A DNA stretch of 64,000 nucleotides, taken from the IMG/VR virus record IMGVR_UViG_3300027792_000002, positions 1 to 64,000 of that record, one strand, 5' to 3'. Of this stretch, positions 1,198 to 57,073 are shown in pieces. The first letter of the stretch is position 1. Each line of letters starts with the position of its first letter. A program made the translations under genes and the position numbers. The notes under the pieces were generated by a model. It made no database searches, was not told where the DNA came from, and saw nothing but the letters and a program-made list of their open reading frames with translations. The DNA comes from a virus.

Positions 1198-1314
1198 TAT
1201 ATCAATTAATTATAGTATTTGCGCGATTGTGCATTACACATATAAACGAGTTACCGTGCAGTTTGAAAAAAACAGATTAAAATATGATTGTATATAATAC
1301 TAAATAATTAATTT

Positions 1315-1650
1315 ATGAAATATTTTACACCAATAGCATCAAATGATGAGGATGGAGAGAAATGGTGTAATTTTTTTAATGAAAAATCAAACCAAGACAA
1401 TCCAGATAAGTTTAAAAAGAGAGTTTTCTCTGTAAGTCAAATGAATGTTAAATTAGAACTTATTCATTATGACAAAATAGACGGTAATTTCCCAGACAGC
1501 AAAATCCCAATTGTAGCAATTATTGAAACAGACACTACATTTGACATCTATGGACTATCTGTAAGAGAAATTAATGGGAAAGACAACTGTAAATATCATG
1601 TTCATTCTATCCAGAAGAGCTTATTTGTTGTTCCAGAATATTTTGATTAA
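1315..1650 (+). CDS. Cassette-borne hypothetical protein (111 aa)
   Basis: This is the only plus-strand gene in the arrays, inside the cassette bounded by cores at 1250 and 1824. The 111-aa product (MKYFTPIASNDEDGEKWCNF...) is soluble and mixed alpha/beta, with no signal peptide and no known motif. A 65-base leader separates it from the core. Its 3' end overlaps a convergent minus-strand frame (1607-1771). The function is unknown. Confidence 0.65.
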   Translation: MKYFTPIASNDEDGEKWCNFFNEKSNQDNPDKFKKRVFSVSQMNVKLELIHYDKIDGNFPDSKIPIVAIIETDTTFDIYGLSVREINGKDNCKYHVHSIQKSLFVVPEYFD

Positions 1651-1771
1651 CAAATTTATTTCTAAACCTACGCTTAGTTTTATCTGGCATGTTTTTTAAT
1701 AAATCTGCCATTATTTTTGGAACAATGTAAGAACGAACTTCAATGATACATTTTTTATTCGATTTATTCAT
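1607..1771 (-). CDS. Possible small basic protein convergent with 1315-1650
   Basis: A 54-codon frame (MNKSNKKCIIEVRSYIVPKI...) starts at ATG 1769-1771 and stops at 1607, overlapping the end of the plus-strand gene by 44 bases. It is lysine/arginine rich (KTKRRFRNKF). It fills the otherwise empty right half of the cassette and matches the minus-strand orientation of the other cassette genes, which is the main reason to list it. It could be a chance frame. Confidence 0.35.
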   Translation of the reverse strand: MNKSNKKCIIEVRSYIVPKIMADLLKNMPDKTKRRFRNKFVNQNILEQQISSSG

Positions 1772-1815
1772 ATAATAAAATTAAAATGATTAATAATAAA
1801 AAAAATAAAAACCGA

Positions 1816-1949
1816 CACGGTAACAAAGTGCAAATTTCATCCCTGCTATGGCGGTAAATTCATGTATTTCATATCGCTAAATATTTTATATTTAATTGAA
1901 AAATCAAAGTACGTATCCGGGTCGAAAATTTGCACTTGCCCGTTAGCGG
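1816..1949 (-). repeat. attC-like site 1.1
   Basis: The left core CACGGTAAC (1816-1824) is followed by the arm AAGTGCAAATTT. The matching arm AAATTTGCACTT (about 1926-1937) precedes the right core GTTAGCGG (1942-1949). The arms are perfect complements over 12 bases and enclose about 90 bases. Confidence 0.75.
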
Positions 1950-2179
1950 TTATTAAAACGACCAAACGCATCCAAACATTCCTGAACTGAGTTATGTGTT
2001 TCAGAAAATTCAGAATACCATCGTTTATCCATTCTTGGTTCTTCAACTGATGCAAGGAATGTTTTGCCTCCATCCATTGTAAAAATTGAGTACTTTCTAC
2101 TATCTGTTTTCTTTTCATAAGCATAGCAGAAATCAGGTCTTTGTTTGTTTTTTACGAGTTTAAATTCTTTTAAGTTCAT
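1943..2179 (-). CDS. Cassette-borne hypothetical protein (78 aa)
   Basis: The start ATG at 2177-2179 (MNLKEFKLVKNKQRPDFCYA...) was chosen because the longer frame begins in an AT-rich leader. The stop TAA lies inside the core GTTAGCGG (TTA at 1943-1945), so the frame ends exactly at the cassette boundary. The middle is strand rich (KYSIFTMDGGKTFLASVEEP). The cassette spans 1942-2204 with perfectly complementary ends. Its function is unknown. Confidence 0.65.
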   Translation of the reverse strand: MNLKEFKLVKNKQRPDFCYAYEKKTDSRKYSIFTMDGGKTFLASVEEPRMDKRWYSEFSETHNSVQECLDAFGRFNNR

Positions 2180-2196
2180 AATGATAAGATTAACAA

Positions 2197-2328
2197 CCGC
2201 TAACACACAATAAAAAATATATGGGTATTAGTGGTAAATTGTGCGGTCTGCTTCTAATTTAATTCAATGCGTGGGATAAGTAACCGCTTCGAAATCCCAT
2301 ACATTTCTTATTGTAAAACGTTGTGTTT
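2197..2328 (-). repeat. attC-like site 1.2
   Basis: Core CCGCTAAC (2197-2204), arm ACAATAAAAAATATATGGG, return arm CCCATACATTTCTTATTGT and core GTTGTGTTT (2320-2328). The arms match at 17 of 19 positions. The same arm family recurs at 47437-47569 in array 2. Confidence 0.8.
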
Positions 2329-2390
2329 CATTGCGCTTGAAAATTTAGGTTTAAATGAAGTGTTTCCGCAAGCGCAACGGAAAACACAAC
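2320..2390. repeat. Gene-less 71-bp palindromic mini-unit
   Basis: The unit starts GTTGTGTTTCATTGCGCTTG and ends CAAGCGCAACGGAAAACACAAC-like, so it is palindromic over about 20 bases at each end. It has cassette-type complementary cores and no room for a gene. It lies between two attC-like sites and could be a non-coding cassette or the remnant of one. Confidence 0.55.
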
Positions 2391-2760
2391 ACATTATATA
2401 GGTAATGCAACGTGCATTTAATCGGCATTTGTGCAAGTTTTATTTTTGCCTACGCTCAATTTTAGCCTTACCAATCATAAATTCAATCCCTGTTATTTTA
2501 CCTTTAAGTTCCCCTAATTTGCTATCGCTTAAAGCACTCCCAAAATTATTTAAATCTTGTTTTAGTTCTAATAATAATTTTTCTGCTGTTATGTCGCTTA
2601 GTTGTCTTTCTGGTACTGCAACATATACAATTTTTTTCTTTCCAAACATTCTATTTAGTTTTATGCCCACGCTCAAAAATAAAACGCGAGCGGTTATACA
2701 TTTAATCAACTTTCGTGAAGTTTCGAGGGTTGCACTACCCATATAATTTAACGTTGTGCG
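2382..2760 (-). repeat. attC-like site 1.3 with an unusually long loop
   Basis: Core AAACACAAC (2382-2390), arm ACATTATATAGGTAATGCAA, return arm TTGCACTACCCATATAATTT and core GTTGTGCG (2753-2760). The arms pair well, but they are about 310 bases apart and enclose a whole gene (2440-2649). Ordinary attC loops here are 40-90 bases. Confidence 0.55.
2440..2649 (-). CDS. Small hypothetical protein nested between attC arms
   Basis: A 69-aa frame from ATG 2647-2649 (MFGKKKIVYVAVPERQLSDI...) ends in KAKIERRQK. It is probably helical after a short beta start, with no membrane segment. A longer upstream extension would run through the attC arm and is less likely. Its position inside a palindrome rather than between two cores suggests that a unit lost its boundary or that a gene moved into the loop. 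The function is unknown. Confidence 0.5.
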   Translation of the reverse strand: MFGKKKIVYVAVPERQLSDITAEKLLLELKQDLNNFGSALSDSKLGELKGKITGIEFMIGKAKIERRQK

Positions 2761-2765
2761 TAATG

Positions 2766-2981
2766 CTAAGATTCGCACTTCGGATGCCGTTTTTTGTCTT
2801 TAACCCACTCTTTAAATTCTTTTCTATAATGAGCAAACTCGACAATTATCCACATAGTTTTAAATCTATGACCCAATTCATCAAGTAACAATTTACCTAA
2901 ATATCCAATTACTAATATGCTTCCAATTGTTGCAGAAAGCCAAAAAACTATTAATCCAATCCAGTAATAAATTTGTTCCAT
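2766..2981 (-). CDS. Small membrane protein in cassette
   Basis: The 71-aa product starts MEQIYYWIGLIVFWLSATIG and has one or two membrane segments (residues 4-30), then a charged tail (FAHYRKEFKEWVKDKKRHPK). The start at 2981 was preferred over a frame that runs through the core. The cassette is bounded by GTTGTGCG (2753) and CGCACAAC (3004), which are complementary. It probably sits in the inner membrane with the tail in the cytoplasm. The role is unknown. Confidence 0.6.
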   Translation of the reverse strand: MEQIYYWIGLIVFWLSATIGSILVIGYLGKLLLDELGHRFKTMWIIVEFAHYRKEFKEWVKDKKRHPKCES

Positions 2982-3003
2982 TGTTTTGATTATTAAAGCA
3001 CTA

Positions 3004-3137
3004 CGCACAACACGCAATATAAAACATGCTGGGCTTCGTGTGGTTATTGAATATTTGTTCTCGTTTCAAAATTGTAGCGGTTTGACAAGTCCGTGCTTCG
3101 TAATCCAGCACGATTTCATATTGCCATCGTTAGAGCG
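3004..3137 (-). repeat. attC-like site 1.4
   Basis: Core CGCACAAC (3004-3011), arm GCAATATAAAACATGCTGG, return arm CCAGCACGATTTCATATTGC and core GTTAGAGCG (3129-3137). The same outer arms (GCAATATA / CATATTGC) are seen at 4063-4160 and 52033-52129. Confidence 0.8.
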
Positions 3138-3210
3138 AAAGCCCGAAGGGATTTCGCTCTAACGGCTCCGTGCTTTGCGCGAGTCCAGCCCTCCGGGACT
3201 GTCCTCTAAC
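3129..3210. repeat. Mini-cassette copy A (no gene)
   Basis: The unit runs from GTTAGAGCG (3129) to CTCTAAC (3204-3210) and contains only hairpins. The first 35 bases fold on themselves, GTTAGAGCG to CGCTCTAAC (3155-3163). A second left half-site (CTCTAACGGCTCCGTGC) can pair with the right arm of the following attC. Copy B, about 95% identical by eye, is at 47053-47134 in array 2. Confidence 0.7.
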
Positions 3211-3264
3211 ACGGGCTTTGCGCACGGGCTTGCGCCTGGCGCAAAGCACGGAGCAGTTATGGGT
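3204..3264 (-). repeat. Short attC-like site 1.5
   Basis: Core CTCTAAC (3204), stem GCTTTGCGC with GCGCAAAGC, then core GTTATGGGT (3256-3264). At about 60 bases it has classical short attC size. The 15-base loop at 3224-3238 is the exact reverse complement of the loop in copy B (47148-47162). Confidence 0.8.
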
Positions 3265-3297
3265 AAGCATATTGCAGCCTACCCATTTGATAAAGAA

Positions 3298-3519
3298 TTA
3301 AGAAGTTGGCTTCGGGTCTAAATTTGACAGAACTTCGACAGGAGTAATATCTGAATAGTGTTTCCAGAATTTATTCCCGTTCATATTCTGTATTTTAATC
3401 CATGTGCCACTTGGAGAGATTTCAAGTATTTTTATCTCTTCAACTTTTGACGAAGACGAATAACCTCGTTCTTTTTCTGTGACAAGTACTCTTTTGTGCA
3501 ATAATTCAGTTACGTTCAT
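3298..3519 (-). CDS. Cassette-borne small beta-rich protein
   Basis: The 73-aa product (MNVTELLHKRVLVTEKERGY...) looks like a small beta barrel: alternating hydrophobic strands (VEEIKILEISPSGTWIKIQN) and a final VEVL strand. The cassette ends at GTTATGGGT (3256) and ACCCATAAC (3572) are perfectly complementary, and this is its only gene. No catalytic residues are recognisable. It could be an RNA- or protein-binding fold, but that is inference. Confidence 0.65.
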   Translation of the reverse strand: MNVTELLHKRVLVTEKERGYSSSSKVEEIKILEISPSGTWIKIQNMNGNKFWKHYSDITPVEVLSNLDPKPTS

Positions 3520-3571
3520 AATTTTGAAAATTTAATGATTAATGTATAAATATTTGATTAATAAATGCCTA

Positions 3572-3704
3572 ACCCATAACTTCAGCTACCCGTCAAGTGC
3601 GGCAGCAGTGGTTTTAGGTGTGTATCTTTCCGCTCAAACCGTCTTTCGGCTTGACAGGAAATCGCCCGCAGTCCGCATCTGCGTGTAGCTTCCTACGTTG
3701 TGCG
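3572..3704 (-). repeat. attC-like site 1.6
   Basis: Core ACCCATAAC (3572-3580), arm CAGCTACCCGTCAAGTGCGG, return arm CCGCATCTGCGTGTAGCT and core GTTGTGCG (3697-3704). The site at 56515-56647 in array 3 belongs to the same arm family (AGCTA...GCGTGTAGC). Confidence 0.75.
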
Positions 3705-3834
3705 TCATTTAAGACGGACACAGCACGCATCGGAAATCGTCTAAAATCATTGCAATTAAAAGTTGCCTAAAATCTGCAAGCATATCAGACCAGTTAACGC
3801 AGTGCATAGCTGAATAAACTTTCATTCGTTCAGT

Positions 3835-4023
3835 TTAAGACAGCTCAATCTCATTACCTGTGCGAGGATGGATTTTGATTAAATCAGAATCACCATCAGA
3901 ATATTTATTGATGTTTAATTTACCATCAACAGATTCAGATAATCTAAACCTCTCTTCACCAATATAGATAGTAATTATTTTTACTTCAATTGGTTCTTCG
4001 TCTCTTTCTTTTTTGAATTTCAT
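3835..4023 (-). CDS. Cassette-borne hypothetical protein (62 aa)
   Basis: A 62-aa acidic/basic mixed protein (MKFKKERDEEPIEVKIITIY...) with strands around residues 12-32. Its unit lies between GTTGTGCG (3697) and GCGATAAC (4063), which are not complementary. This suggests a fusion of two former cassettes; the roughly 130 bases right of 3704 carry no gene. The function is unknown. Confidence 0.55.
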   Translation of the reverse strand: MKFKKERDEEPIEVKIITIYIGEERFRLSESVDGKLNINKYSDGDSDLIKIHPRTGNEIELS

Positions 4024-4062
4024 AATATATTGTTTTAAAATTAGTTACTAATAAAAACCGAA

Positions 4063-4160
4063 GCGATAACACGCAATATAGCACAAAAGCCAAGTTAAGG
4101 CGGTGCTTCGTGGTGTGGTTCGGTGGTTGGCTTTAGATGCCATATTGCCAACGTTATAGA
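4063..4160 (-). repeat. attC-like site 1.7, right end of array 1
   Basis: Core GCGATAAC (4063-4070), arm CAATATAGCACAAAAGCCAA, return arm TTGGCTTTAGATGCCATATTG and core GTTATAG (4153-4159). The stop codon of the next gene (TTA at 4154-4156) lies inside this core. Confidence 0.8.
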
Positions 4161-4450
4161 TAATGACCACCACATCTTAAGCATCTACCACTTGCACCTA
4201 TTTTCCATACCGTTCTGCCTTTTTGTTCACAATTGCAAATGTCACTATCTATAACGTCCGCAGGTATATACAAGCGTTGGTGATCCATTACAAAACCATA
4301 TATTTTTTCGTATGTTTTGGTCAGTATATCTGTTTTCCCCCTCAAGTAGTTTGACAGGGAACTTTGGGTTATTTTTGTACCTGCTGATATTTCGCAGTTT
4401 TTTAGCCCGGAGTTTTTTATTTTTTCGATTAATTCTTTTCGTAAATCCAT
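4154..4450 (-). CDS. HTH regulator with C-terminal zinc ribbon
   Basis: In the 98-aa product, residues 1-60 look like an XRE-type helix-turn-helix (ISAGTKITQSSLSNYLRGKT). The C-terminus has two cysteine pairs (CNCEQ near 73 and CLRCGGHYL near 90) that could bind zinc. It is the right-most gene of array 1 and its TAA sits in the terminal core, with no second core on its 5' side. It may be the resident phage gene at which the cassettes accumulated. It is probably a DNA-binding regulator. Confidence 0.65.
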   Translation of the reverse strand: MDLRKELIEKIKNSGLKNCEISAGTKITQSSLSNYLRGKTDILTKTYEKIYGFVMDHQRLYIPADVIDSDICNCEQKGRTVWKIGASGRCLRCGGHYL

Positions 4451-46415: not shown

Positions 46416-46455
46416 AATATCAGTTAGTTATTAAAAATATAGATATATAAACGAG

Positions 46456-46674
46456 TTATGCCTCATTTGTAAGACACAGTAATCTAAATATCACACCATC
46501 TAATTTTTGTGCTGATGCTTCATCGTCTCGATTTCTTGCTTCTACCTTCAATTGTTCTAAATCTGTTATGATTTGATTGTCTCTTTGTAAAACAGCTTTA
46601 CGAGAAAAACGAGGCATAACAGCACCTATACCCAATTGGGCAGTTTCTTGGTTATTCAAATTTTCGTGTATCAT
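46456..46674 (-). CDS. Cassette protein whose start and stop lie in the cores
   Basis: The frame is open from 46674, but an ATG sits inside the core itself (GTTATGCC, ATG at 46615-46617), giving MPRFSRKAVLQRDNQIITDL..., 53 aa. The stop TAA lies in the other core (46456-46458). The gene therefore fills the cassette exactly. The longer version would add residues encoded by the attC arm (TAQLGIGAV). The product is charged and helical, function unknown. Confidence 0.55.
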   Translation of the reverse strand: MIHENLNNQETAQLGIGAVMPRFSRKAVLQRDNQIITDLEQLKVEARNRDDEASAQKLDGVIFRLLCLTNEA

Positions 46675-46748
46675 ATTTACTTTATTTTAAGTTGATAATT
46701 TTCTGTTTCAAATTGCCAAACTGGGCATAGCTGCGAACCGTTAGCGTT
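46613..46748 (-). repeat. attC-like site 2.1
   Basis: Core GGCATAAC (46613-46620), arm CAGCACCTATACCCAATTGG, return arm CCAAACTGGGCATAGCTG and core GTTAGCGTT (46740-46748). The CCTATA / CATAGCTG arm family is shared with sites 54223, 54834 and 55963 of array 3. Confidence 0.8.
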
Positions 46749-47004
46749 CAGTTTGCTGATGTTTGCAAGTTGCTTTATAATAACAAATATGTGTTTTGGG
46801 TGTATGAAAATGGCATTCCATAGCATTGTGATCGCAAACCGTTCGCTTCGAAACGCTAACATTTTGCAAATCCAATATTTTTAACTCACAGACGTATAAA
46901 ATCATGTCTTTTTCTTCCTGTCCGGGGTAATCACTAACGGTTACATCTTTTATAAAATTTTCTAATCGTTTCCAAAATCCTAATTCTTTCGTGTAATCCT
47001 TCAT
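46741..47004 (-). CDS. Cassette-borne hypothetical protein, starts inside an attC loop
   Basis: The 87-aa frame starts in the loop of attC site 2.2, passes through its arm and core, and stops in the next core (TTA at 46741). The product has a charged helical N-terminus (MKDYTKELGFWKRLENFIKD) and a Cys/His-rich C-terminus (ECHFHTPKTHICYYKATCKH) that could bind zinc. The function is unknown. Confidence 0.5.
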   Translation of the reverse strand: MKDYTKELGFWKRLENFIKDVTVSDYPGQEEKDMILYVCELKILDLQNVSVSKRTVCDHNAMECHFHTPKTHICYYKATCKHQQTER

Positions 47005-47061
47005 TTTATTGGTTTTTAAAATTCGTTAAAAATACTGTACTTGCAAGTTGCCGTTAGAGCG
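46852..47061 (-). repeat. attC-like site 2.2
   Basis: Core AACGCTAAC (46852-46860) followed by an arm with TTTGCAAATCC and TATTTTTAAC, return arm GTTAAAAATACTGTACTTGC, core GTTAGAGCG (47053-47061). The arms match closely over about 24 bases. The loop of about 140 bases contains the 5' half of the gene 46741-47004. Confidence 0.7.
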
Positions 47062-47134
47062 GAAGCCCGAAGGGCTTTCGCTCTAACGGCTCCGTGCTTT
47101 GCGCGAGTCCAGCCCTTCGGGACTGTCCTCTAAC
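47053..47134. repeat. Mini-cassette copy B (no gene)
   Basis: The same design as copy A at 3129-3210: inner palindrome GTTAGAGCG to CGCTCTAAC (47053-47087), then a second left half-site ending at CTCTAAC (47128-47134). Only a few single-base differences from copy A were found by eye. It is followed by the attC whose loop is inverted relative to copy A. Confidence 0.7.
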
Positions 47135-47188
47135 ACGTGCTTTGCGCCAGGCGCAAGCCCGTGCGCAAAGCACGAAGCCGTTAGGCAC
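47128..47188 (-). repeat. Short attC-like site 2.3
   Basis: Core CTCTAAC, stem GCTTTGCGC / GCGCAAAGC, core GTTAGGCAC (47180-47188). The loop at 47148-47162 (CAGGCGCAAGCCCGT) is exactly the reverse complement of the loop at 3224-3238. Confidence 0.8.
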
Positions 47189-47192
47189 AATA

Positions 47193-47423
47193 CTAAGACT
47201 GCGCCCGTAACCATTCTGTAAGTTTCTTTTTTGCATCGTATCTTTCGACTTTGCCAATTTGCACATTAAATGAACCCATCCTTTGATAACATTCTCCGTA
47301 ATAATTTGAAAAAGCAACGAAGTTATTATTTCTAACAACCCAATAATTACCCCGAAATGAGTAAACCCCATCTTTTCGTGTCTTTGCCTTATCGTGCAGT
47401 AAAATAGTTTCGTCAATTGTCAT
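47193..47423 (-). CDS. Cassette-borne hypothetical protein (76 aa)
   Basis: The start at 47423 (MTIDETILLHDKAKTRKDGV...) lies 14 bases inside the cassette bounded by GTTAGGCAC (47180) and GTGCCTAAC (47437). The product is beta rich (YSFRGNYWVVRNNNFVAFSN) and ends in a helix (KKKLTEWLRAQS). This looks like a small globular protein of unknown function. Confidence 0.65.
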   Translation of the reverse strand: MTIDETILLHDKAKTRKDGVYSFRGNYWVVRNNNFVAFSNYYGECYQRMGSFNVQIGKVERYDAKKKLTEWLRAQS

Positions 47424-47436
47424 GATAAAAAGTACT

Positions 47437-47569
47437 GTGCCTAACACTAAATATAAAATATACGGGTGTTAGTGCGTATTTGAACGGTACTACCTTTAAT
47501 TAAGTGTTGTGTATCGGGATAGGATACCGCTTTTAATCCCGTACATTTCATATTTTTAACGTTAGGCAC
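47437..47569 (-). repeat. attC-like site 2.4
   Basis: Core GTGCCTAAC (47437-47445), arm AAATATAAAATATACGGG, return arm CCCGTACATTTCATATTTTT and core GTTAGGCAC (47561-47569). Same arm family as site 1.2. Confidence 0.8.
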
Positions 47570-47571
47570 AA

Positions 47572-47853
47572 TTAAACCACCTGCCTACTATGGTCTGAAT
47601 CAACAACCCGCTTAATTGGTGTTTCATATACTTTTACTCCTGTTATAGTATCGCCTTTGTCGTTAAATGTGATATTCGTTACTACTTCGGATGGCTTCTT
47701 GCTTTCTTGTACAATTCCAATCCACCTGTGGTTTTCATTAGAGAAACTTCCGTTTTCCATTTTGAAGCCAGCACTACCAAAAGCGTTTTCTAAAACTTGG
47801 TAAAGTGTTGTTTCTTCTAATTGCCCTTTTGAGTTTTTAATATAAATTTCCAT
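47572..47853 (-). CDS. Cassette-borne hypothetical protein (93 aa)
   Basis: The 93-aa product (MEIYIKNSKGQLEETTLYQV...) fits a cassette bounded by GTTAGGCAC (47561) and GTGCCTAAC (47868). It has a beta-hairpin start, a helix (VLENAFGSAGFKMENG) and strands (TNITFNDKGDTITGVKVYET). No family recognised. Confidence 0.65.
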   Translation of the reverse strand: MEIYIKNSKGQLEETTLYQVLENAFGSAGFKMENGSFSNENHRWIGIVQESKKPSEVVTNITFNDKGDTITGVKVYETPIKRVVDSDHSRQVV

Positions 47854-47867
47854 GATAATAATTAACT

Positions 47868-47958
47868 GTGCCTAACAAGCGGTCATAAAACATGCCGCAA
47901 TTAGGCGGGTTTGCCACGCTTCTACTCAAACACGTCACCGTTAAAGCTATGTTAGCGG
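47868..47958 (-). repeat. Probable attC-like site 2.5, right end of array 2
   Basis: The left core GTGCCTAAC (47868-47876) is clear and is followed by AAGCGG. The right core could be GTTAAAGC (47940) or GTTAGCGG (47951). Arms pair only weakly, so this site may be degenerate. Confidence 0.45.
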
Positions 47959-47962
47959 TAAT

Positions 47963-48343: not shown

Positions 48344-48706
48344 TCATGTTTTATCTGCTTTTTTAATAGACAATGATTTGAACGATACAATGTCCCCTAT
48401 TTGGAAAAACCTTGACCCTACTTTGAATTTAGAAGAAAGTTTGCAAAATTCCTGCTCGTTTAATTTCCTTTTGAATTTATCTTTGTTGTTAAGCAAAAAC
48501 ATTATAAATTCATTTTGTGTCAAAGATGGTAGATAAACCAAAAAGTTGGTATTGAAGGAACAATATTCCTGCAATATATTGAGTTTTGCATTCATAGACC
48601 GTTCTTTGATAATTTTATAAGCCAACTCATCGCTTACCAACTGTAATTCAGAAATAAGTTTACAACTTTTACAATCCTTTTGCATGTTCAAATTGTTTAA
48701 ATTCAA
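48344..48706 (-). CDS. Replication-region hypothetical protein (120 aa)
   Basis: The 120-aa product starts within the 3' end of the helicase gene (38-base overlap). It has a CKSCKL pair, a helical middle (QNEFIMFLLNNKDKFKRKLN) and a beta end (VGSRFFQIGDIVSFKSL). It ends at a TGA after which the same frame remains open. It may be a helicase partner. Confidence 0.55.
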   Translation of the reverse strand: MNLNNLNMQKDCKSCKLISELQLVSDELAYKIIKERSMNAKLNILQEYCSFNTNFLVYLPSLTQNEFIMFLLNNKDKFKRKLNEQEFCKLSSKFKVGSRFFQIGDIVSFKSLSIKKADKT

Positions 48707-49628
48707 GATCAGTATTAGACATCAATAGCCTTAATTTGTCGAATTGATATACAACGTCTATTATATTCCCAGAACCGCGTTTGTTTACAAGCCTCAATGC
48801 CCCATAATTATCATCGTAGCCATCGTTTTTCTCAAATAGGCTTGTTGTGATATAAAAATCAGAATTATCTATTATTTTCTCAGAACTCCTTACCATAGAA
48901 CTTAAATCACGGTCTGTTTTTTTCCCACCTTTAGAAACATGGCACATCAGCAGAACAAGTATGTTCCATTTATTCGCCAAATCTTTTAGTTCCTTTGAGT
49001 GCCTTGAATAAAGTTCTGTTTCGCTTCCTTTACCTCCCATCCCGGCTATCCCATCTACTACCAATATATCAATAAATTTGCCTTGCCCTTTAAATTTTGT
49101 CAACAGTTTATCAAAGCTCTCTGCTTCCACGGATGTATTTTGCGTTATAAATAAATTATTTTTAAATGATGGGGCAAATTCTTCATCAAAAAATTTCTTT
49201 GCATCTATTTCTTTTGTCTTGTTGTTATGGTATTCGAGTTCAAAATGCGGGTTATAGTTGCCTATTGGTTCGCAAAACATATCTATAAGCCTGTTTATTA
49301 TTTCTGTTGCCCCCATTTCCATTGTAGAATACAAACAAGAACCAAACCTATTTATTATATTCTCGTAAGCAATATTTAATGCCAATAAGCTTTTTTTAGT
49401 GCCTCCATACCCAATTATGGGGACTAATTTGCCCCTCAATTTGCCCTTAAACTCTTTGTTCCATTTTTCAAATAAAAGGCTTAACCTGTTGTTTTCTGGA
49501 AGGATTGATTTATACCATTCATCAGACCATTGGCTGACATCCTTGCAGACTATATCGTCTTGGTATGGCTCTAATTTGTTGAACTCCTTGGAATCAATCT
49601 TAAACCCTTCTATAAAATCTTCTATCAT
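48669..49628 (-). CDS. DnaB-like RecA-fold helicase/ATPase
   Basis: The 319-aa product has a RecA-type core: Walker A-like IGYGGTKKSLLALNIA (residues 72-87), Walker B FIDILVVDGIAGMGG (near 184), and the DnaB-like CHVSKGGKKTDRDLSSMVRS then EKIIDNSDFYI. The Walker A has Lys where Gly usually precedes the catalytic Lys (GTKKS). This resembles RepA/DnaB-type replicative helicases. It would unwind DNA at the fork. It overlaps the upstream gene by four bases (ATGA). Confidence 0.75.
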   Translation of the reverse strand: MIEDFIEGFKIDSKEFNKLEPYQDDIVCKDVSQWSDEWYKSILPENNRLSLLFEKWNKEFKGKLRGKLVPIIGYGGTKKSLLALNIAYENIINRFGSCLYSTMEMGATEIINRLIDMFCEPIGNYNPHFELEYHNNKTKEIDAKKFFDEEFAPSFKNNLFITQNTSVEAESFDKLLTKFKGQGKFIDILVVDGIAGMGGKGSETELYSRHSKELKDLANKWNILVLLMCHVSKGGKKTDRDLSSMVRSSEKIIDNSDFYITTSLFEKNDGYDDNYGALRLVNKRGSGNIIDVVYQFDKLRLLMSNTDLEFKQFEHAKGL

Positions 49629-51625: not shown

Positions 51626-51674
51626 AAATGTTTAATTATTAATTATTTAATCTATAAAGTAAATTTACATATTG

Positions 51675-52016
51675 TTATAGCCAATTAAAAGGAACGTCTA
51701 AATAATTTTGATTGTTATTTAACCAAAATAAATAGTCCTTTGTTATTTCTGTTTCATAAATAGAATCAATAATTTCATTAGCTTCGTAATATTTATACAT
51801 TTTAGGGTCACAAGAATTTCCTCCACAATATTTTACAACAAGAATTTTATTTTTTTCTTGTTTAAATTTTTCATATCTATTCCATAGCATATCTTTAATA
51901 TTATGCTCTGAAACTTCCATAAAACTTAACGCATGATTTATTCTATCTATTTCGTTTTTCAACTTTAATCTTTCAGCGTATAATTCTTCACGTTTTAATT
52001 CATAATAATTTTTCAT
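51675..52016 (-). CDS. Cassette-borne helical protein (113 aa)
   Basis: The 113-aa product (MKNYYELKREELYAERLKLK...) begins with a coiled coil. Its second half (KILVVKYCGGNSCDPKMYKY) carries two cysteines and a YGG-like turn. The TAA lies in the core (TTA 51675-51677). AT-rich codons suggest a low-GC donor. Function unknown. Confidence 0.65.
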   Translation of the reverse strand: MKNYYELKREELYAERLKLKNEIDRINHALSFMEVSEHNIKDMLWNRYEKFKQEKNKILVVKYCGGNSCDPKMYKYYEANEIIDSIYETEITKDYLFWLNNNQNYLDVPFNWL

Positions 52017-52032
52017 AATTGAATAATTAACT

Positions 52033-52129
52033 GGCTATAACAATCAATATAAAACAGTTGCCAGAAAACTGCATCATATTTTGAAACATCTTACAAGGCA
52101 ACCGTTTCATATTGCCGACCGTTAGTAGC
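52033..52129 (-). repeat. attC-like site 3.1
   Basis: Core GGCTATAAC (52033-52041), arm CAATATAAAACAGTTGCC, return arm GGCAACCGTTTCATATTG, core GTTAGTAGC (52121-52129). Arms almost perfect over 18 bases. Confidence 0.85.
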
Positions 52130-52175
52130 AAGGCAAAGACGCTCCGAATGAACGTCCGTGCCAAGCATTAAGATT

Positions 52176-52298
52176 TTAGTCTGTGATAATTGACAATTGT
52201 CCACAGGCTGCACCGTTTTCAATCTCACTTTGAGTTGCTACGGCAACGGCAAAATCATAACCGTTTTCTTCTAATTGACTTTTAATTTGTTCAGTCAT
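52176..52298 (-). CDS. Separate C-terminal segment of an RlmN/Cfr-like enzyme (40 aa)
   Basis: The frame from ATG 52296-52298 to TAA 52176-52178 encodes a 40-aa peptide (MTEQIKSQLEENGYDF...) ending GAACGQLSIITD. NGAACGQL matches the C-terminal methyl-carrying cysteine motif of RlmN/Cfr enzymes (AACGQL), with Cys at residue 32. It begins 11 bases after the stop of the radical SAM gene and in another frame, so it is a separate peptide, not a simple read-on. Both could be one gene split by a frameshift, or a natural two-subunit enzyme. Confidence 0.7.
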   Translation of the reverse strand: MTEQIKSQLEENGYDFAVAVATQSEIENGAACGQLSIITD

Positions 52299-52309
52299 TG
52301 CTTTATGTA

Positions 52310-53092
52310 TTAAATTAAATTAATTCCCTCTACTACTCCACTTCCAAGCCCATTCTTTTCAGAAGTAGTATTCGGGTTTATTGGGCTTATTTTTATGAAA
52401 AATTTATCCTTATCGAAATACTGTTTAATCTTTTCAATATCAAAGTCTTTTTCTTCTACCAAAGTTAAATTTATGGTAGTTTTCAAATTGCTTTCGGTTC
52501 TTACATTTCCAAGTTGCTCAATGGTCATTTTATTTTTGTAAGGTATTAGCCAATTCCTATGCTCTTCATCTAAGCTATGCAAAGAAAGTTGCAGCGTTAC
52601 ATTGTCTTTTATCCAAGTAAAATCGGCATCTTTCAAACCAATAGTTGAAATGTAGTGGTGTGTATTTGGGTAGTGTTGGCTTATTTTTTCAATTGCCTTT
52701 TTAACGTTTTCAATATTTAAAAACGGCTCTCCCATTCGAGTATAGTTTATTTTAAATTCTTTACTATTCAATGGGTTTATGTTGTTTTTAGCAATTATAA
52801 ACTCAACTTGTGTTGTAATTTCTTGCCAAGTCAAATTACGCCAACTTTTCATTTGTCCAGTTGCACAAAACTTGCATCTTACAGGGCAACCACTCATTAC
52901 ACTTACCCCAATCATCCAACGTTCTGAACGGTCGCTTAATTCGTAGTTCTCGAGCATATTTTGTTTTCTACCTATTGCATCTTTTGTATAAAAAGGCAAA
53001 AAGGTATCAGTAGTTTCAATCAACATTCCGTCCTCTAATTCGAGGCAATAAACTCTACCGTTTTTAAAGTTCTTTTGTTTTTTAATTTTCAT
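52310..53092 (-). CDS. RlmN/Cfr-like radical SAM protein lacking its C-terminal cysteine
   Basis: The 260-aa product has the CxxxCxxC cluster (SGCPVRCKFCATG, C69, C73, C76), then YTRMGEPFLNIENVKKAIEK, STIGL, LQLSLHSLDEEHRNWLIPY, as in RlmN/Cfr radical SAM methyltransferases that methylate adenosine in 23S rRNA or tRNA. The usual C-terminal cysteine is absent; it is encoded by the 40-aa frame 52176-52298 next door. RlmN is normally about 350-390 aa; this lacks the N-terminal RNA-binding extension. It lies alone with its partner in one cassette. Substrate unknown. Confidence 0.75.
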   Translation of the reverse strand: MKIKKQKNFKNGRVYCLELEDGMLIETTDTFLPFYTKDAIGRKQNMLENYELSDRSERWMIGVSVMSGCPVRCKFCATGQMKSWRNLTWQEITTQVEFIIAKNNINPLNSKEFKINYTRMGEPFLNIENVKKAIEKISQHYPNTHHYISTIGLKDADFTWIKDNVTLQLSLHSLDEEHRNWLIPYKNKMTIEQLGNVRTESNLKTTINLTLVEEKDFDIEKIKQYFDKDKFFIKISPINPNTTSEKNGLGSGVVEGINLI

Positions 53093-53122
53093 TGTATAAA
53101 TATTTTAAGATTAAAAATGCCC

Positions 53123-53256
53123 AGCTACTAACACCGTATATAAGTAATTGGGGTTTAGCTTGTTAATTAATCATTCTGCCACGTATTTAGGTCTGTATAT
53201 TTTGATAGGTTCGCTCTTCGCATTCCCCAACTACTCATATACGAACCGTTACCGCC
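53123..53256 (-). repeat. attC-like site 3.2
   Basis: Core GCTACTAAC (53123-53131), arm CGTATATAAGTAATTGGGG, return arm CCCCAACTACTCATATACG, core GTTACCGCC (53248-53256). Arms pair at 17 of 19 positions. Confidence 0.85.
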
Positions 53257-53258
53257 AA

Positions 53259-53600
53259 TTAAAACGAAATCTGAAACATTATCCCCTTTTCGTCTTTGAT
53301 TAGGTCAGGTCTATCTGTTGCCCATAAACCAACTGTTGTATCCTTGTGATGTTCAAGTTTTTTGATATATCCAATATCTTTTAAATATTGTAAATATTCT
53401 TCTTTTGAGTTTACATTATCAGGAATATAATATTTCTGGTTTTCATTTTCAATAGGGTCAGGTACAAATACCCATTGCTTTCTGTAATTATTTTCTTTTG
53501 AGTCAGAAAATTCATACATAAATCCACCTTCTACTCTCATTTTTCTAAAAAGAAATTTTCCTGAATCTTCGTGTACATCAATAATTTTGTGTAATTCCAT
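53259..53600 (-). CDS. Cassette-borne hypothetical protein (113 aa)
   Basis: The 113-aa product (MELHKIIDVHEDSGKFLFRK...) has strand-rich aromatic parts (RKQWVFVPDPIENENQKYYI) and a helix (SKEEYLQYLKDIGYIKKLEH). Cassette ends GTTACCGCC (53248) and GGCGGTAAC (53619) are complementary. No family recognised. Confidence 0.65.
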   Translation of the reverse strand: MELHKIIDVHEDSGKFLFRKMRVEGGFMYEFSDSKENNYRKQWVFVPDPIENENQKYYIPDNVNSKEEYLQYLKDIGYIKKLEHHKDTTVGLWATDRPDLIKDEKGIMFQISF

Positions 53601-53618
53601 TTTGATTAAAAATTAACT

Positions 53619-53714
53619 GGCGGTAACAACAGCTATATGTTATTGCCGTCAAAGTTTAGTGTTGTTTTGAAAGTTTATCGTTTGGCAACAACACATAGCC
53701 AAAACGTTAAGTGC
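53619..53714 (-). repeat. attC-like site 3.3
   Basis: Core GGCGGTAAC (53619-53627), arm CAGCTATATGTTATTGCCG, return arm TTGGCAACAACACATAGCC, core GTTAAGTGC (53706-53714). Confidence 0.8.
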
Positions 53715-53789
53715 AACTCCGCTGTCGCTGCGTTGCACTTAACGGACTCCCGGCAAGCCGGTGCCAAGCTCCGCTCCGCTCCACTTAAC
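53706..53789. repeat. Mini-cassette C (no gene)
   Basis: Architecture parallel to the mini-cassettes A and B but a different sequence: inner palindrome GTTAAGTGC to GCACTTAAC (53706-53743), then a second left half-site ending CACTTAAC (53782-53789). Both left half-sites (AACGGACTCCCGG and AACACCCGGTTGG) can pair with the right arm of the following attC (CCGGGAGCCCGTT). Confidence 0.65.
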
Positions 53790-53867
53790 ACCCGGTTGGT
53801 GCAATCCAGCCAAGACTGAGCCGGCTCACGGGGCTGGACAGACACCAACCGGGAGCCCGTTATGCAC
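53782..53867 (-). repeat. attC-like site 3.4
   Basis: Core CACTTAAC (53782-53789), arm ACCCGGTTGGTG, return arm CACCAACCGGGAG, core GTTATGCAC (53859-53867). GC rich, unlike most sites here. Confidence 0.8.
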
Positions 53868-53871
53868 AAGT

Positions 53872-54186
53872 TTAAGAAGCTACCCATATCTGCGATGGTC
53901 TTTCAAATTCTTTGCATCCTACATTTGCATCGGTATGATAATCATTTGTCTTATCGTTGTTCGGTTTATTTTCACATCTAATTGCATAATGAACTTGACA
54001 CCCTGCAATTATTACATGATTATTTTCACTACCAACTTTTGCAAACCAGTTAGAGCTATTCCTATTGGTTTTTAAACCAAGAAATGTATCTTCAATTATT
54101 TCAACTTCACCCCAAACAGCTCTATATTGTTTACCATCGGGGGCTAAAAACCAAGCATCTGTTGTTATTAAATATTTTCCTTTCAT
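53872..54186 (-). CDS. Cassette-borne hypothetical protein (104 aa)
   Basis: The start at 54186 (MKGKYLITTDAWFLAPDGKQ...) is preferred; a longer frame from 54291 runs through the attC arm. The product is a beta-rich small protein (YRAVWGEVEIIEDTFLGLKT, FAKVGSENNHVIIAGCQVHY). This family-like pattern (a protein that begins by describing a Trp-rich barrel) is often found in integron arrays; function unknown. Confidence 0.65.
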   Translation of the reverse strand: MKGKYLITTDAWFLAPDGKQYRAVWGEVEIIEDTFLGLKTNRNSSNWFAKVGSENNHVIIAGCQVHYAIRCENKPNNDKTNDYHTDANVGCKEFERPSQIWVAS

Positions 54187-54222
54187 ATTGTTTATTTTTA
54201 AATGATTACTAAAAAAAACCCT

Positions 54223-54321
54223 GTGCATAACCGCACCTATAAGCAAGTTTGCGGACAGGGTTTCTGTAACTTGACACATGCTGCAACGCAAACCTGCTCA
54301 TAGCTGCAACACGTTAGCGTT
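54223..54321 (-). repeat. attC-like site 3.5
   Basis: Core GTGCATAAC (54223-54231), arm CGCACCTATAAGCAAGTTTG, return arm CGCAAACCTGCTCATAGCTG, core GTTAGCGTT (54313-54321). Same family as sites 2.1 and 3.7. Confidence 0.85.
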
Positions 54322-54325
54322 CATG

Positions 54326-54484
54326 CTAAAGAGACAACCCATTAGATTCTTTGAACGCTTTTTCTTGTTGATAAATTGACTCCCAATATTCGGTTTCCTT
54401 AAAATCGTTTCCCCAAATAAATAGTTTCCATCCCATTGATGCTATTTTCATTTTTAATACTGTAATAATTGATAATTTGCCCAT
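54326..54484 (-). CDS. Small cassette protein (52 aa)
   Basis: From ATG 54482-54484 the product is MGKLSIITVLKMKIASMGWK..., an amphipathic start and a charged helix (YWESIYQQEKAFKESNGLSL). The cassette is bounded by GTTAGCGTT and AACGCTAAC. Function unknown. Confidence 0.55.
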   Translation of the reverse strand: MGKLSIITVLKMKIASMGWKLFIWGNDFKETEYWESIYQQEKAFKESNGLSL

Positions 54485-54528
54485 TTTGTTTCTATTTTTA
54501 AAAGTTATTAATCTGAAATAAAGCACGA

Positions 54529-54662
54529 AACGCTAACAATGTGTATCATCAATAAGGGTTTCAGTGCAATTAGTAAGGTCTGTAATCCGCTCAAACGTTG
54601 GTATAATTCGATTGGAACTGCCACGCAATCCCTTACTGAATGATACACCAACCGTTAGCAGT
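54529..54662 (-). repeat. attC-like site 3.6
   Basis: Core AACGCTAAC (54529-54537), arm GTGTATCATCAATAAGGG, return arm CCCTTACTGAATGATACAC, core GTTAGCAGT (54654-54662). Confidence 0.85.
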
Positions 54663-54665
54663 AAT

Positions 54666-54899
54666 TTAGGATTGTGTTCCAAAATCAAGGCTGTCAACTT
54701 TCTTTTTTAATTCCTCATCTTTACCCATCCAAGCAAAGGCAATATCATAATAGGTATCTAAATCCCAGCCTTTCAACTGTGGGTTTTTAAGTTTAGCGTG
54801 TTCTTCCAATTTGTCGATTAGTGAATAAAAACTACTGCTAACATCACCTATACCAAATTTGGCAGCGTGTGCAGTTCTGATTTTTTTTACCTTATCCAT
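54666..54899 (-). CDS. Cassette protein that starts in an attC loop (77 aa)
   Basis: The only ATG start (54899) lies in the loop of attC site 3.7. The first 20 residues (MDKVKKIRTAHAAKFGIGDV) are encoded by the attC arm and core; the rest (SLIDKLEEHAKLKNPQLKGW...) by the cassette. The product is helical and charged. It illustrates translation across an attC junction. Confidence 0.6.
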   Translation of the reverse strand: MDKVKKIRTAHAAKFGIGDVSSSFYSLIDKLEEHAKLKNPQLKGWDLDTYYDIAFAWMGKDEELKKKVDSLDFGTQS

Positions 54900-54969
54900 A
54901 GTTTTGTATGTATTTGATTATTAATTTCTTTTAAAGCCAAACTTGGCATAGCTGAGTACCGTTGTGTGC
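54834..54969 (-). repeat. attC-like site 3.7
   Basis: Core ACTGCTAAC (54834-54842), arm CACCTATACCAAATTTGGCA, return arm GCCAAACTTGGCATAGCTG, core GTTGTGTGC (54961-54969). It contains the start codon of gene 54666-54899. Confidence 0.8.
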
Positions 54970-55017
54970 AATAGCCTTTCTTCGTAGCAAGGTTAGTGCT
55001 TAATAAATCTTTTTGTT

Positions 55018-55179
55018 TTATTTTTTGCCAACGCTCTTTGGCTTTTTCAAAGCCATTAAGTATGAATCCACCAAATACTCAACGAACGAACTAAACGAAC
55101 GGCGTTCTTTTACCGCCTGTTCTTCCCCTGCTTTTGCAATATCCTCGTCAATTGTAATGCTTTTGTTTATTTTTCCCAT
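55018..55179 (-). CDS. Ribbon-helix-helix-like DNA-binding protein (53 aa)
   Basis: From ATG 55177-55179 the product is MGKINKSITIDEDIAKAGEE..., with the beta strand (NKSITID) and the helix pair (AGEEQAVKERRSFSSFVEYL) of a CopG/Arc-type ribbon-helix-helix. It is one of two such genes in this 1-kb cassette, flanking the tRNA-like elements. Could be an antitoxin or a regulator. Confidence 0.65.
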   Translation of the reverse strand: MGKINKSITIDEDIAKAGEEQAVKERRSFSSFVEYLVDSYLMALKKPKSVGKK

Positions 55180-55375
55180 TTCAGTATATAATAAAAAAGG
55201 CTGCCGATGCAGCCCTGTACAAAACATTGAGTTAATTAACTACCACTCTAAAAACTTTTTCAGGGGTTTAAAAGAACTTTACACTTTGCATTTTAATCTT
55301 TAAAGCGTAAGAACTTTTAATTTTAACCTTTGCACTTTGAACGTTAATCTTTAAACTTTTCGGTTTTTTTACTTT

Positions 55376-55452
55376 TGCTCTAACCAACTGAGCTAACAAA
55401 CCCGAAGATTTGTGAAGGACTTGAACCTCCGACCTCTCGATTAGCAATCGAA
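55376..55452 (-). ncRNA. Circularly permuted tRNA-like element 1 (anticodon GCU)
   Basis: Read on the minus strand, the order is anticodon arm (55452-55436, stem TTCGA/TCGAG, loop TTGCTAA, anticodon GCT), five-base variable loop, T arm (55430-55414, GGAGG-TTCAAGT-CCTTC), 3' acceptor strand ACAAATC (55413-55407), TTCG, 5' acceptor strand GGTTTGT (55402-55396), TA, and D arm (GCTC...GAGC, 55393-55377). All four arms exist, but the 3' half precedes the 5' half, and the acceptor stem is closed by a UUCG tetraloop. Mature length would be 77 nt. Confidence 0.75.
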
Positions 55453-55594
55453 GTAACCCACATTTCGCTACCACCAAGAATTTTGCAAGGGAAAAATGAA
55501 CAATGTGTATTTTCATCCAAAGAAGTAACATTATTCTCGCCACTCGCAATATTTTAAAAAAGCAGAGTAAATTTAACAGGGAGCTTTATTATTT

Positions 55595-55661
55595 TGCTCT
55601 ACCAACTGAGCTACTTTCCGAAGAAAGAAAGGGTTCGAACCTTCGACACAAATATCTGTGA
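55595..55661 (-). ncRNA. Circularly permuted tRNA-like element 2
   Basis: The layout is the same as element 1: anticodon-like hairpin (CACA-GATATT-TGTG), T arm (GAAGG-TTCGAAC-CCTTT, 55644-55628), CTTTC-TTCG-GAAAG as a 5-bp capped acceptor stem (55627-55614), then TA and the D arm (GCTC...GAGC, 55611-55596). Both are preceded by GTAGCGA and GGGTTACTTC. The short acceptor and atypical anticodon loop argue against a decoding tRNA and for a mimic. Confidence 0.65.
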
Positions 55662-55677
55662 AGTAACCCTATTATCG

Positions 55678-55818
55678 CTACTGCTTTTTATTTTTCTCAA
55701 AGAACTTTATTATAATGTACCGCACAAAAGAAGAAATTGTTGTAAACCCGTGAGCCTTCATATCTTTTTTTAGTCTATCGTACCATTCTTGCTCAATAAA
55801 TAAGTGAAATCTTCTCAT
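55678..55818 (-). CDS. Ribbon-helix-helix-like small protein (46 aa)
   Basis: A frame from ATG 55816-55818 to TAG 55678-55680 encodes MRRFHLFIEQEWYDRLKKDM..., with the strand-helix-helix order of ribbon-helix-helix proteins (FHLFIEQEWYDRLKKDMKAH, then TTISSFVRYIIIKF). Its stop codon is the TAG in the conserved GTAGCGA that introduces tRNA-like element 2, so protein and RNA are closely linked. Confidence 0.65.
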   Translation of the reverse strand: MRRFHLFIEQEWYDRLKKDMKAHGFTTISSFVRYIIIKFFEKNKKQ

Positions 55819-55962
55819 ACTGCTTTTGTGTGTCATTCATGGTACAAATATACACATTTATTTTAATATCCAAACAAAAACAAATAAAAAAAATGCCCTC
55901 CCTAAAAAATATTAAAAATTTGTTTCGTACTCGTATCAAATTTGTGGGATAAAAAACAGCCA

Positions 55963-56095
55963 GCGTACAACCCAACCTATAACCAATAAAGGTTTTAGTG
56001 GTTAATCCAAAGTTGCAGCTCGCATCAGCTTTTGTGTATTTTGATAGGCACGAAGCCCGTAATCCTTTACTGGTCATAGCTTCAACGTTGTAACC
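55963..56095 (-). repeat. attC-like site 3.8
   Basis: Core GCGTACAAC (55963-55971), arm CCAACCTATAACCAATAAAG, return arm CTTTACTGGTCATAGCTTC, core GTTGTAACC (56087-56095). The left core differs by two bases from the complement of the unit's other end (GTTGTGTGC, 54961). From 55819 to 56134 no gene is seen apart from this site and the promoter-like AT-rich leader. Confidence 0.75.
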
Positions 56096-56134
56096 AATGC
56101 TAATCGCTTTGTTGAAACGACTAGCACTGAGATT

Positions 56135-56461
56135 TTAGTTAATTTCTATGCAATCAGATTTACGATTAATCATATAATCAGGATCTACTATTTTATCATT
56201 CATGTGTTCATATCTCCATTGCAATGTATTGATCATTTCCGAGTCGTTCTTATGAGTAGATTTATATGTCTGTGTAATTGGGACTTCATGTCCATTTACA
56301 AAAACAGTATAAGCACTTCCGATTGATTTAATTATTATTGAATCGTTCACTATAAATTCATTACAATTTTTTGGATTTACATATCCTGAATTGACCCATT
56401 TTTGACCTTTACTACAGGACAATAGGCATACTACCATTGTTAAAAACATTAATTTTTTCAT
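56135..56461 (-). CDS. Cassette-borne lipoprotein (108 aa)
   Basis: The signal MKKLMFLTMVVCLLSCSKGQ has a lipobox (LLSC, Cys16). The mature part is strand rich (EFIVNDSIIIKSIGSAYTVF) and ends with a cysteine (DCIEIN). It would be anchored in the cell envelope. It is the only clearly exported product in the arrays. The cassette has ends GTTGTAACC and GGTTACAAC. Confidence 0.7.
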   Translation of the reverse strand: MKKLMFLTMVVCLLSCSKGQKWVNSGYVNPKNCNEFIVNDSIIIKSIGSAYTVFVNGHEVPITQTYKSTHKNDSEMINTLQWRYEHMNDKIVDPDYMINRKSDCIEIN

Positions 56462-56514
56462 CTTGTGTAATTTTTAAATATTTGACAATTAATTATTTGA
56501 CTAATAAAGCACTA

Positions 56515-56647
56515 GGTTACAACTTTAGCTAACCCGCAAGTCAGGCAACCGTGGTTTCCGAGCATTGCAGCCCGTATTAACTTTTGCTCTGACAGGAAAG
56601 GTGTGAGCCTCGCACCCTGCCCTGCGTGTAGCCATCAGCGTTGTGCC
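56515..56647 (-). repeat. attC-like site 3.9
   Basis: Core GGTTACAAC (56515-56523), arm TTAGCTAACCCGCAAG followed by TCAGGCA, return arm CCCTGCCCTGCGTGTAGC, core GTTGTGCC (56640-56647). Same arm family as site 1.6. Confidence 0.7.
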
Positions 56648-57073
56648 TCATGCAAGGATAGCACCGTGCATAATGACAAAGTATAGTTTATTTGGTTCTG
56701 CTCCCCATTCAGGGTTGCCTGTTCTGATTTCAATTCCTTTATGTTTAAGTTTTAAAATACGTTCTGAATCGGTTGATTTTGGATAACCTAAAGTCATTAC
56801 GTTTATATCAAACTTTTTACTGTGATTTTTAACTAAGTAATTTTGGTCAATATGTTTTAAAATACCATCAATGGCATCCTGTTCAATCGGATAAATTGCA
56901 TTATATCGCTCTGACATTAGTCTTTTAATCCAATAATGATTAACTTCCCGATAGTCCTCTCTCTTTATTCCTGCTTTTGTCATTTCAAACCATTTAGTTT
57001 TTAAAGATAAATGCAGGCACGAAGGCATAACACTATGTTTATGCAATTGGGGGTTTTGTTCGTTATTCATCAT
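56648..57073 (-). CDS. ASCH-domain protein
   Basis: The product (141 aa; 125 aa if it starts at the ATG inside core GTTATGCC) reads LHLSLKTKWFEMTKAGIKRE, then EDYREVNHYWIKRL, then VMTLGYPK and KHKGIEIRTGNPEWGAEPNK, the pattern of ASCH-family proteins. ASCH domains are thought to bind RNA and are common in phages and mobile elements. The N-terminal 16 residues of the longer form come from the attC arm. Confidence 0.75.
   Translation of the reverse strand: MMNNEQNPQLHKHSVMPSCLHLSLKTKWFEMTKAGIKREDYREVNHYWIKRLMSERYNAIYPIEQDAIDGILKHIDQNYLVKNHSKKFDINVMTLGYPKSTDSERILKLKHKGIEIRTGNPEWGAEPNKLYFVIMHGAILA

Follow-up and report, generated by a model that had tools for sequence, protein, structure and literature searches.

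What are the palindromes near the left end of a phage genome that encodes no integrase, and do the genes between them move? The question is raised by positions 1250-4160 (array 1) of the window, meaning the whole stretch of DNA analysed, 64,000 bp of the 64,616-bp IMG/VR virus record IMGVR_UViG_3300027792_000002. The record ends carry a 127-bp terminal repeat, so the record is likely to be a complete phage genome. Three palindrome arrays lie among its leftward genes, at 1250-4160, 46455-47960 and 51674-57155, and no tyrosine recombinase or integron integrase is encoded anywhere in the record. Our analyses make it probable that array 1 is one of three clusters of attC sites lacking integron integrases (CALINs) in this genome, and that its units belong to a pool of small accessory genes that pass between unrelated phages of Bacteroidota. 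The sites have the structure, family and direction of integron attC, and the minus-strand genes oppose the plus-strand direction of the attC. This gene-against-attC polarity in phage cassettes of one attC family is new; phage CALINs themselves are already known, having been reported in passages of Qi et al. 2023 (PMC9892861).

Identity of the palindromes

The covariance model R1, built solely from 57 bacterial attC sites, recovered 16 sites at E <= 2.3e-5 from the whole window, all on the plus strand and all inside the three arrays; the next window matches had E-values of 0.32 and 0.92. Covariation, computed on 18 rows that include two weak matches and were aligned by fitting to the model, revealed both-sided changes in 17 of 20 pairs, with 92.9% of the cells paired against 60.5% in shuffled and 29-37% in slid alignments. 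Folding of the arms as DNA, joined via a short artificial loop, gave mean energies of -14.7 kcal/mol for the minus strand (range -11.9 to -18.0), -11.0 for the plus strand and -4.3 +/- 2.1 for shuffled arms, and the minus strand folded better at 16 of 16 sites, as befits an attC bottom strand. An earlier note on this DNA, which had proposed an integron attC array, had named beforehand the lack of stable hairpins as grounds for rejecting it; the hairpins are stable, and the sites are attC. A loose arm scan was not decisive, giving 13 sites scoring at least 12 against 5, 3, 11, 6 and 2 in five shuffles.

Integron arrays and CALINs are recognised by two or more attC with paired R and L arms and a GTT/AAC core, as present at the 16 sites, and CALINs also by the absence of an integron integrase nearby. 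Since the phage encodes none, the window arrays are CALINs; a complete integron would carry intI in cis. The general agreement of genes with attC direction, usual in CALINs though not strictly defining, is absent here, which makes the window arrays a variant form and not ordinary CALINs.

A gapped pattern built from two window sites, AACANNCAATAT ... ATATTGNCNNCGTTR (the CAATAT family), had 12 matching stretches among viral contigs and 100 among bacterial genomes. By record title the bacterial stretches are nearly all from Bacteroidota, Chlorobiota, Ignavibacteria, Marinimicrobia or Cloacimonadota, that is, Bacteroidota and related phyla of the Fibrobacteres-Chlorobi-Bacteroidetes group, which fits the donor group suggested earlier. 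The window sites are thus integron attC of a family of Bacteroidota and related phyla and fold as single-strand hairpins. A third attC pattern found no match in viral_contigs, and two attC sites searched by blastn in isolated phages produced nothing beyond spurious matches of 38-43 nt.

The same hairpins could act mainly as RNA elements behind stop codons, in mRNA stability or termination, their likeness to attC being kept for that role. In the operon direction every site follows closely behind a gene, and it is the coding strand that folds better, which would give a well-folded mRNA. We nevertheless consider this explanation very improbable: an invariant core and a conserved 132-nt loop common to bacterial arrays fit recombination, as do the exchange ending at cores and the array insertions in phage G024 described below, and the T-run of a terminator design is missing. 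A second, RNA-level role alongside recombination may exist.

Direction of the attC and orientation of the genes

Bacterial cassettes, read in the gene direction, have a short arm spacer at R'' and a long one at R' (39 of 39), and in 118 of 124 bacterial sites it is the gene-antisense strand that folds better. On bacterial contigs, among the matches listed, the attC point away from the neighbouring A3-type integrase (a family treated below) in all 17 pairs within 10 kb, the only pairs on which the statement of direction is based. They likewise point away in pairs 10-17 kb apart (G052, G082, G063, G086), and the distance exceeds 100 kb in G078, G055 and G058. At locus L185, seven of seven attC point away from a canonical IntI. 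Spacer, fold and model all indicate that the window sites point in the plus direction. A reading that placed the arrays on the minus strand, taken from gene direction and the extra base, was overturned by the bacterial loci (39 of 39 against its rule).

Gene orientation was scored by which stop codon adjoins the site. In the bacterial loci, 113 of 182 sites were canonical only, 3 reversed only, 3 both and 63 neither, and 67 of the 68 scored cassettes were oriented with the attC. The 16 window sites showed 0 canonical, 10 reversed and 6 neither; 10 of 11 scored cassettes ran against the attC, the exception being open reading frame (ORF) 2405-2746 inside an interrupted site. Other viral records (44 sites) gave 0 canonical, 33 reversed, 2 both and 9 neither, with 22 of 22 cassettes against the attC. 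In the isolated Polaribacter phage P12002L, R1 found six sites, five reversed and one neither, and a further viral set (L228-L230, obtained via a second pattern, plus L223) added 13 sites, 11 reversed, one both and one neither. The viral total is therefore 59 reversed, 0 canonical, 3 both and 17 neither among 79 sites. Fisher's test on 48:0 versus 3:113, before the further viral set, gave p 2.7e-38, a value to be read knowing that sites within one array are not independent. The gene strand is secure where cassette genes match annotated phage genes or families.

The bacterial count fell from 192 to 182 after removal of 10 hits that were partial or cut by contig ends, and the viral count from 49 to 44 after removal of L017 (a copy of L016), two contig-end hits of L133, an overlapping hit of L132 and an antisense hit of L141; L010 and L016 are one sequence in two records, both scored as neither. 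Among the bacterial exceptions, L054 and L115 seem to be single sites or overlapping ORFs, and L084 has the appearance of a phage contig. Short attC were mostly viral (26/66 versus 2/182 bacterial), and a stop codon exactly at the core was found for 17 of 46 viral genes versus 10 of 114 bacterial genes.

Cassette sharing between phages and insertion of arrays

Comparison of the window with phage record G023 revealed that all DNA similarity, bar one 28-nt match, lies in attC and cassette pieces: 2979-3131 (87% identity), 57027-57153 (89%), 47189-47423 (75%) and 2971-3012 (93%). One cassette protein is 80% identical between the two, the other shared proteins do not exceed 41%, and the terminases share 23%. 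Homology of the gene common to both stops at the core. A methyltransferase cassette is likewise common to phages G019 and P12002L (58% amino acid identity). The sharing of both cassettes and attC with G023 strengthens the earlier suggestion of a common cassette pool.

That pool looks largely viral and not that of a bacterial donor. Four cassette genes match genes of Bacteroidota phages, and a search of 395 Bacteroidota genomes with two cassette proteins gave no match for one and a single match for the other. Those cassette genes that were tested are related over their full length to phage genes (57-70% amino acid identity) and end within a few residues of the relatives' stops. As a separate observation, the radical SAM cassette gene at 52310-53092 (minus strand) is about 70% identical in amino acids to a gene of the crAss-like Kehishuvirus.

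The arrays might alternatively be inert remnants, pieces of an integron from a host chromosome that entered once through illegitimate recombination and have been immobile since. The lack of an integrase in the phage and the degenerate or interrupted sites at 2383-2762 and 47866-47960 would agree with this, but a bacterial fragment would carry genes along the attC, and 0 canonical against 10 reversed sites were scored. Pieces shared with the unrelated G023 at 75-89% DNA identity, a bare left core in each of three separate arrays, and mostly intact stems with compensatory changes also speak against it, and we hold it to be unlikely.

Phages G019 and G024 are related, with 31 protein matches, many of them 50-86% identical. 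The array segments of G024 sit between genes that are spaced 1-2 bp apart in G019, at site A (G019 37148/37151) and site B (40065/40067). The insert at site B consists of an A3-type integrase and three attC, the last of which holds the stop codon of the neighbouring gene in its R' core. G019 thus provides the empty sites, and the comparison shows a clean array insertion in a relative, G024.

Cassettes could also be shuffled without any integrase if the phage's own machinery recombined similar attC repeats by homology. The window phage does encode a recombination-type exonuclease (phrog_298), and its arrays contain similar repeats (pairs at 90% and 72%). Most site pairs, however, are less than 75% identical, the arrays open at bare G^TT cores with no repeat homology outside, and related phages carry an integrase inside their array. 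We regard this route as improbable too, though somewhat less so than inert remnants.

A recombinase family associated with the arrays

Aligned together, the recombinases encoded next to five bacterial arrays and the one of phage G024 form a single family, A3. The best PDB match of the one member searched is IntI4 (2a3v, E 3.6e-45), but against TIGR02249 the family falls below the cut-off with the middle of the model skipped. The spacing from the Box I Arg to HxLR is 84-90 residues in 22 of 24 A3 sequences (96 and 101 in the other two) versus 131 in 28 of 28 canonical IntI of Bacteroidota, so the IntI-specific insert is absent from A3. This insert, between Box I and Box II, is lacking in bacterial A3 as well as in those of viral G024, G027 and G028. 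Like IntI, A3 is encoded beside attC arrays that point away from it.

With presence of A3 defined at E <= 1e-90, 118 Bacteroidota genomes included 63 with R1 attC, 37 with A3 and 33 with both (p 8e-8). In many Bacteroidota genomes, including at loci L196-L221, 132-nt attC arrays are found together with an A3 recombinase, which lacks the IntI insert. A3 occurred in three of the 18 virus or phage records searched (G024, G027 and G028); R1 attC adjoin it in G024 and G027, and none was found in the short locus examined around A3 of G028.

Canonical IntI was rejected as the mobilising enzyme: TIGR02249 exceeded its cut-off in 84 of 296 Bacteroidota genomes, yet no R1 attC was found nearby in the 20 array-side stretches and 30 short loci searched. 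The sole clear canonical array (L185 in G107) is a conventional integron of a Bacteroidota genome, with canonical IntI and seven attC of another type. Since the window phage has no integrase, its arrays would need to be served in trans, and we infer that they are mobilised in that way.

Composition of the arrays

The features of array 1 are given first, followed by those of arrays 2 and 3.

1250-1257, plus strand: bare core G^TTACCGT, left edge of array 1, after ATATAAACGA
1315-1650, plus: first cassette ORF, 111 amino acids, no family; the only one oriented with the attC
1817-1949, plus: attC (R1, E 5.1e-9)
1943-2179, minus: cassette ORF, phrog_24135, 57% amino acid identity to phage phi19:3 gp004; stop codon within the core
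2197-2327, plus: attC of the 47438-47568 family (R1, E 1.6e-16)
2383-2762, plus: interrupted attC-like site with loop ORF 2440-2742 (minus) or 2405-2746 (plus); right part 2640-2760, E 0.32
2766-2981, minus: cassette ORF, no family
3004-3136, plus: attC, 87% DNA identity to the G023 site (E 6.7e-19); unit without evident gene to the right
3156-3263: GC-rich attC-like site from the arm scan, 90% identity to 47080-47187
3298-3519, minus: cassette ORF, no family
3573-3704, plus: attC of the 56516-56647 family (R1, E 7.4e-8)
3835-4023, minus: cassette ORF, no family
4063-4160, plus: attC, short form, right end of array 1 (R1, E 4.7e-8)
4154-4450, minus: helix-turn-helix (HTH) gene, stop codon formed by the TTA of the core at 4153
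46455-47960: array 2, with bare core at 46455, attC at 46613-46747 and 47438-47568, a GC-rich site at 47080-47187 and weak sites at 46853-47062 and 47866-47960
47193-47423, minus: array 2 cassette ORF, 80% amino acid identity to a G023 cassette ORF
51674-57155: array 3, with bare core at 51674, attC starting at 52034, 53125, 53620, 54224, 54530, 54835, 55964, 56516 and 57024, and a GC-rich site at about 53731-53866

The seven sites announced earlier for 1250-4160 are present, as five R1-supported attC, the interrupted site and the GC-rich site, while at position 1250 there is no hairpin but a bare core (G^TTACCG). The figure of about 22 palindromes is also reached, by adding to the 16 R1 sites the three GC-rich sites, the interrupted one and the two weak ones of array 2. 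Site families are indeed common to the three arrays: in pairwise alignments of 21 sites against shuffles, 28 of 210 pairs had z > 5. The strongest alignment was 3156/47080 (90%, z 22); 2197/47438 (72%, z 12), 3004/47438 (72%, z 9.7) and 46613/54835 were also among the strongest, followed by 3573/56516 (67%, z 8.4), 3004/52034 (75%, z 5.9) and 4063/52034 (65%, z 5.6). The predicted fusion of the rightmost site with a stop codon was borne out, with R' being GTTATAGA at 4153-4160 and TTA at 4154-4156 forming the stop of the HTH ORF. What had to be added to that first description is that the genes oppose the attC, that the array opens at a bare core and that the pool looks largely viral; the independent loading of the three arrays, which it called probable, may have taken place.

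Several local features accompany these sites. The left edges of arrays 1 and 2 (1240-1250 and 46445-46455) share ATATAAACGAG ahead of the core, just upstream of leftward phage genes. At the right end of array 1, a 103-nt piece between inverted cores (4153-4255) is fused in frame to the HTH gene, giving a Cys-rich tail. The arms of the interrupted site match across about 270 intervening nucleotides; its extra stretch is flanked by an 8-nt direct repeat (2416 and 2700), with a whole ORF inside the loop. The GC-rich units, to which R1 is blind, have a doubled left arm; a hairpin, GTTAGAGC...GCTCTAAC, precedes those at 3156-3263 and 47080-47187, and a GC-rich 22-mer had no match in viral_contigs. 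At attC 46613-46747 and 54835-54968 the ORF of the next cassette appears to begin within the attC, so that related attC would encode similar N-terminal residues. Array 3 also contains tandem Y-RNA-like matches (YrlA, a tRNA mimic) at 55354-55454 and 55570-55662 on the minus strand, scoring 29.8 and 41 bits, below the Rfam gathering score of 69.

Elsewhere in the window, PHROGs matches comprised large terminase, portal, tape measure, DnaB-like helicase and exonuclease families. ARAGORN found no tRNA in the window and Rfam gave no match at gathering score; megablast of positions 1-25000 against INPHARED and a comparison of array 1 with plasmids gave no match.

Discussion

The window arrays resemble the CALINs in passages of PMC9892861, which describe 17 phage CALINs and active phage attC, the attC clusters occurring, with no integrase, in both virulent and temperate phages, P12002L (also matched by R1) among them; five of six phage attC assayed there recombined with attI1. 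The arrays of TJE1 and PH101 are called typical in direction and the attC of P12002L divergent; unlike our data, those passages contain no consistent gene-against-attC polarity, phage-to-phage cassette sharing or empty sites. A passage of PMC9668308 states that cassette ORFs generally share one orientation. No report of reversed phage cassettes was found in the literature searched, subscription papers and preprints being outside its scope. With sedentary chromosomal integrons the window arrays share attC structure, the G^TT core, the better bottom-strand fold and tandem units, but they differ in having no integrase in the phage, genes against the attC and commonly short attC. A3 resembles IntI in having IntI4 as its best PDB match, but it falls below the TIGR02249 cut-off and misses the IntI insert.

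Integron cassettes can insert at non-classical attG sites. Such insertion, at a simple G^TT with no attI (the name attG occurs in a passage of PMC12901181), would fit the bare cores at 1250, 46455 and 51674, and these insertion sites may be biased towards stop codons. A Bacteroidota-type integrase, that is, a tyrosine recombinase without the IntI insert, would be supplied by the host or a co-infecting phage, bind the folded minus strand, cut at G^TT and insert or swap units. Places at which a TAA stop codon followed by C has G^TTA as its complement would tolerate insertion, since the tightly packed phage genes stay intact there. A phage gene that acquired such a site at both ends would become a cassette with its gene facing against the attC, to be transcribed from the leftward operon of the phage and not from an integron promoter. 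The units would then constitute a pool of small accessory genes traded among unrelated Bacteroidota phages. We infer action in trans, stop codons as safe sites and the genesis of cassettes from phage genes.

Several observations weigh against this scheme. The movement of cassettes is deduced by comparing sequences rather than from observed recombination. Single-protein searches with the DnaB-like protein (48669-49628) and the exonuclease (60750-61568) found no near relative of the window phage in viral_contigs, which leaves this phage itself without an empty-site counterpart. In G019 the base ahead of the stop codon at the empty site is A and not G, so the target base is not conserved and the exact one is not visible. 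Site A in G024 has a right edge that does not coincide with a core. Many viral genes end 6-13 nt beyond the core and not within it, which plain stop-codon insertion fails to explain, and the first cassette (1315-1650) is oriented with the attC. Lastly, viral attC are intermixed with bacterial attC on a tree of 134 columns and many open forks, yet they cluster (17 changes versus 34.4 when shuffled, 0/500).

A wider reading, to which we lean slightly less than to its opposite, is that Bacteroidota phages may run their own branch of the integron system, with opposed gene polarity, short viral attC, an integrase without the IntI insert that some of these phages themselves carry, and cassettes formed from phage genes through insertion of units at stop codons. 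The origin of gene cassettes, and why each gene bears an attC, is a long-standing open question. The near-absolute switch of polarity between bacteria and viruses within one attC family offers a direct handle on it, with phage genes flanked by stop-codon attC resembling nascent cassettes, and the layout is simple to test by survey and a standard recombination assay. If this is true, phages share accessory genes via site-specific recombination, beyond random mosaicism, the IntI insert is not needed for an integrase to serve attC arrays, and the units would be both a gene currency between phages and a route by which new cassettes arise. The results suggest that phages trade genes through their own version of the integron system.

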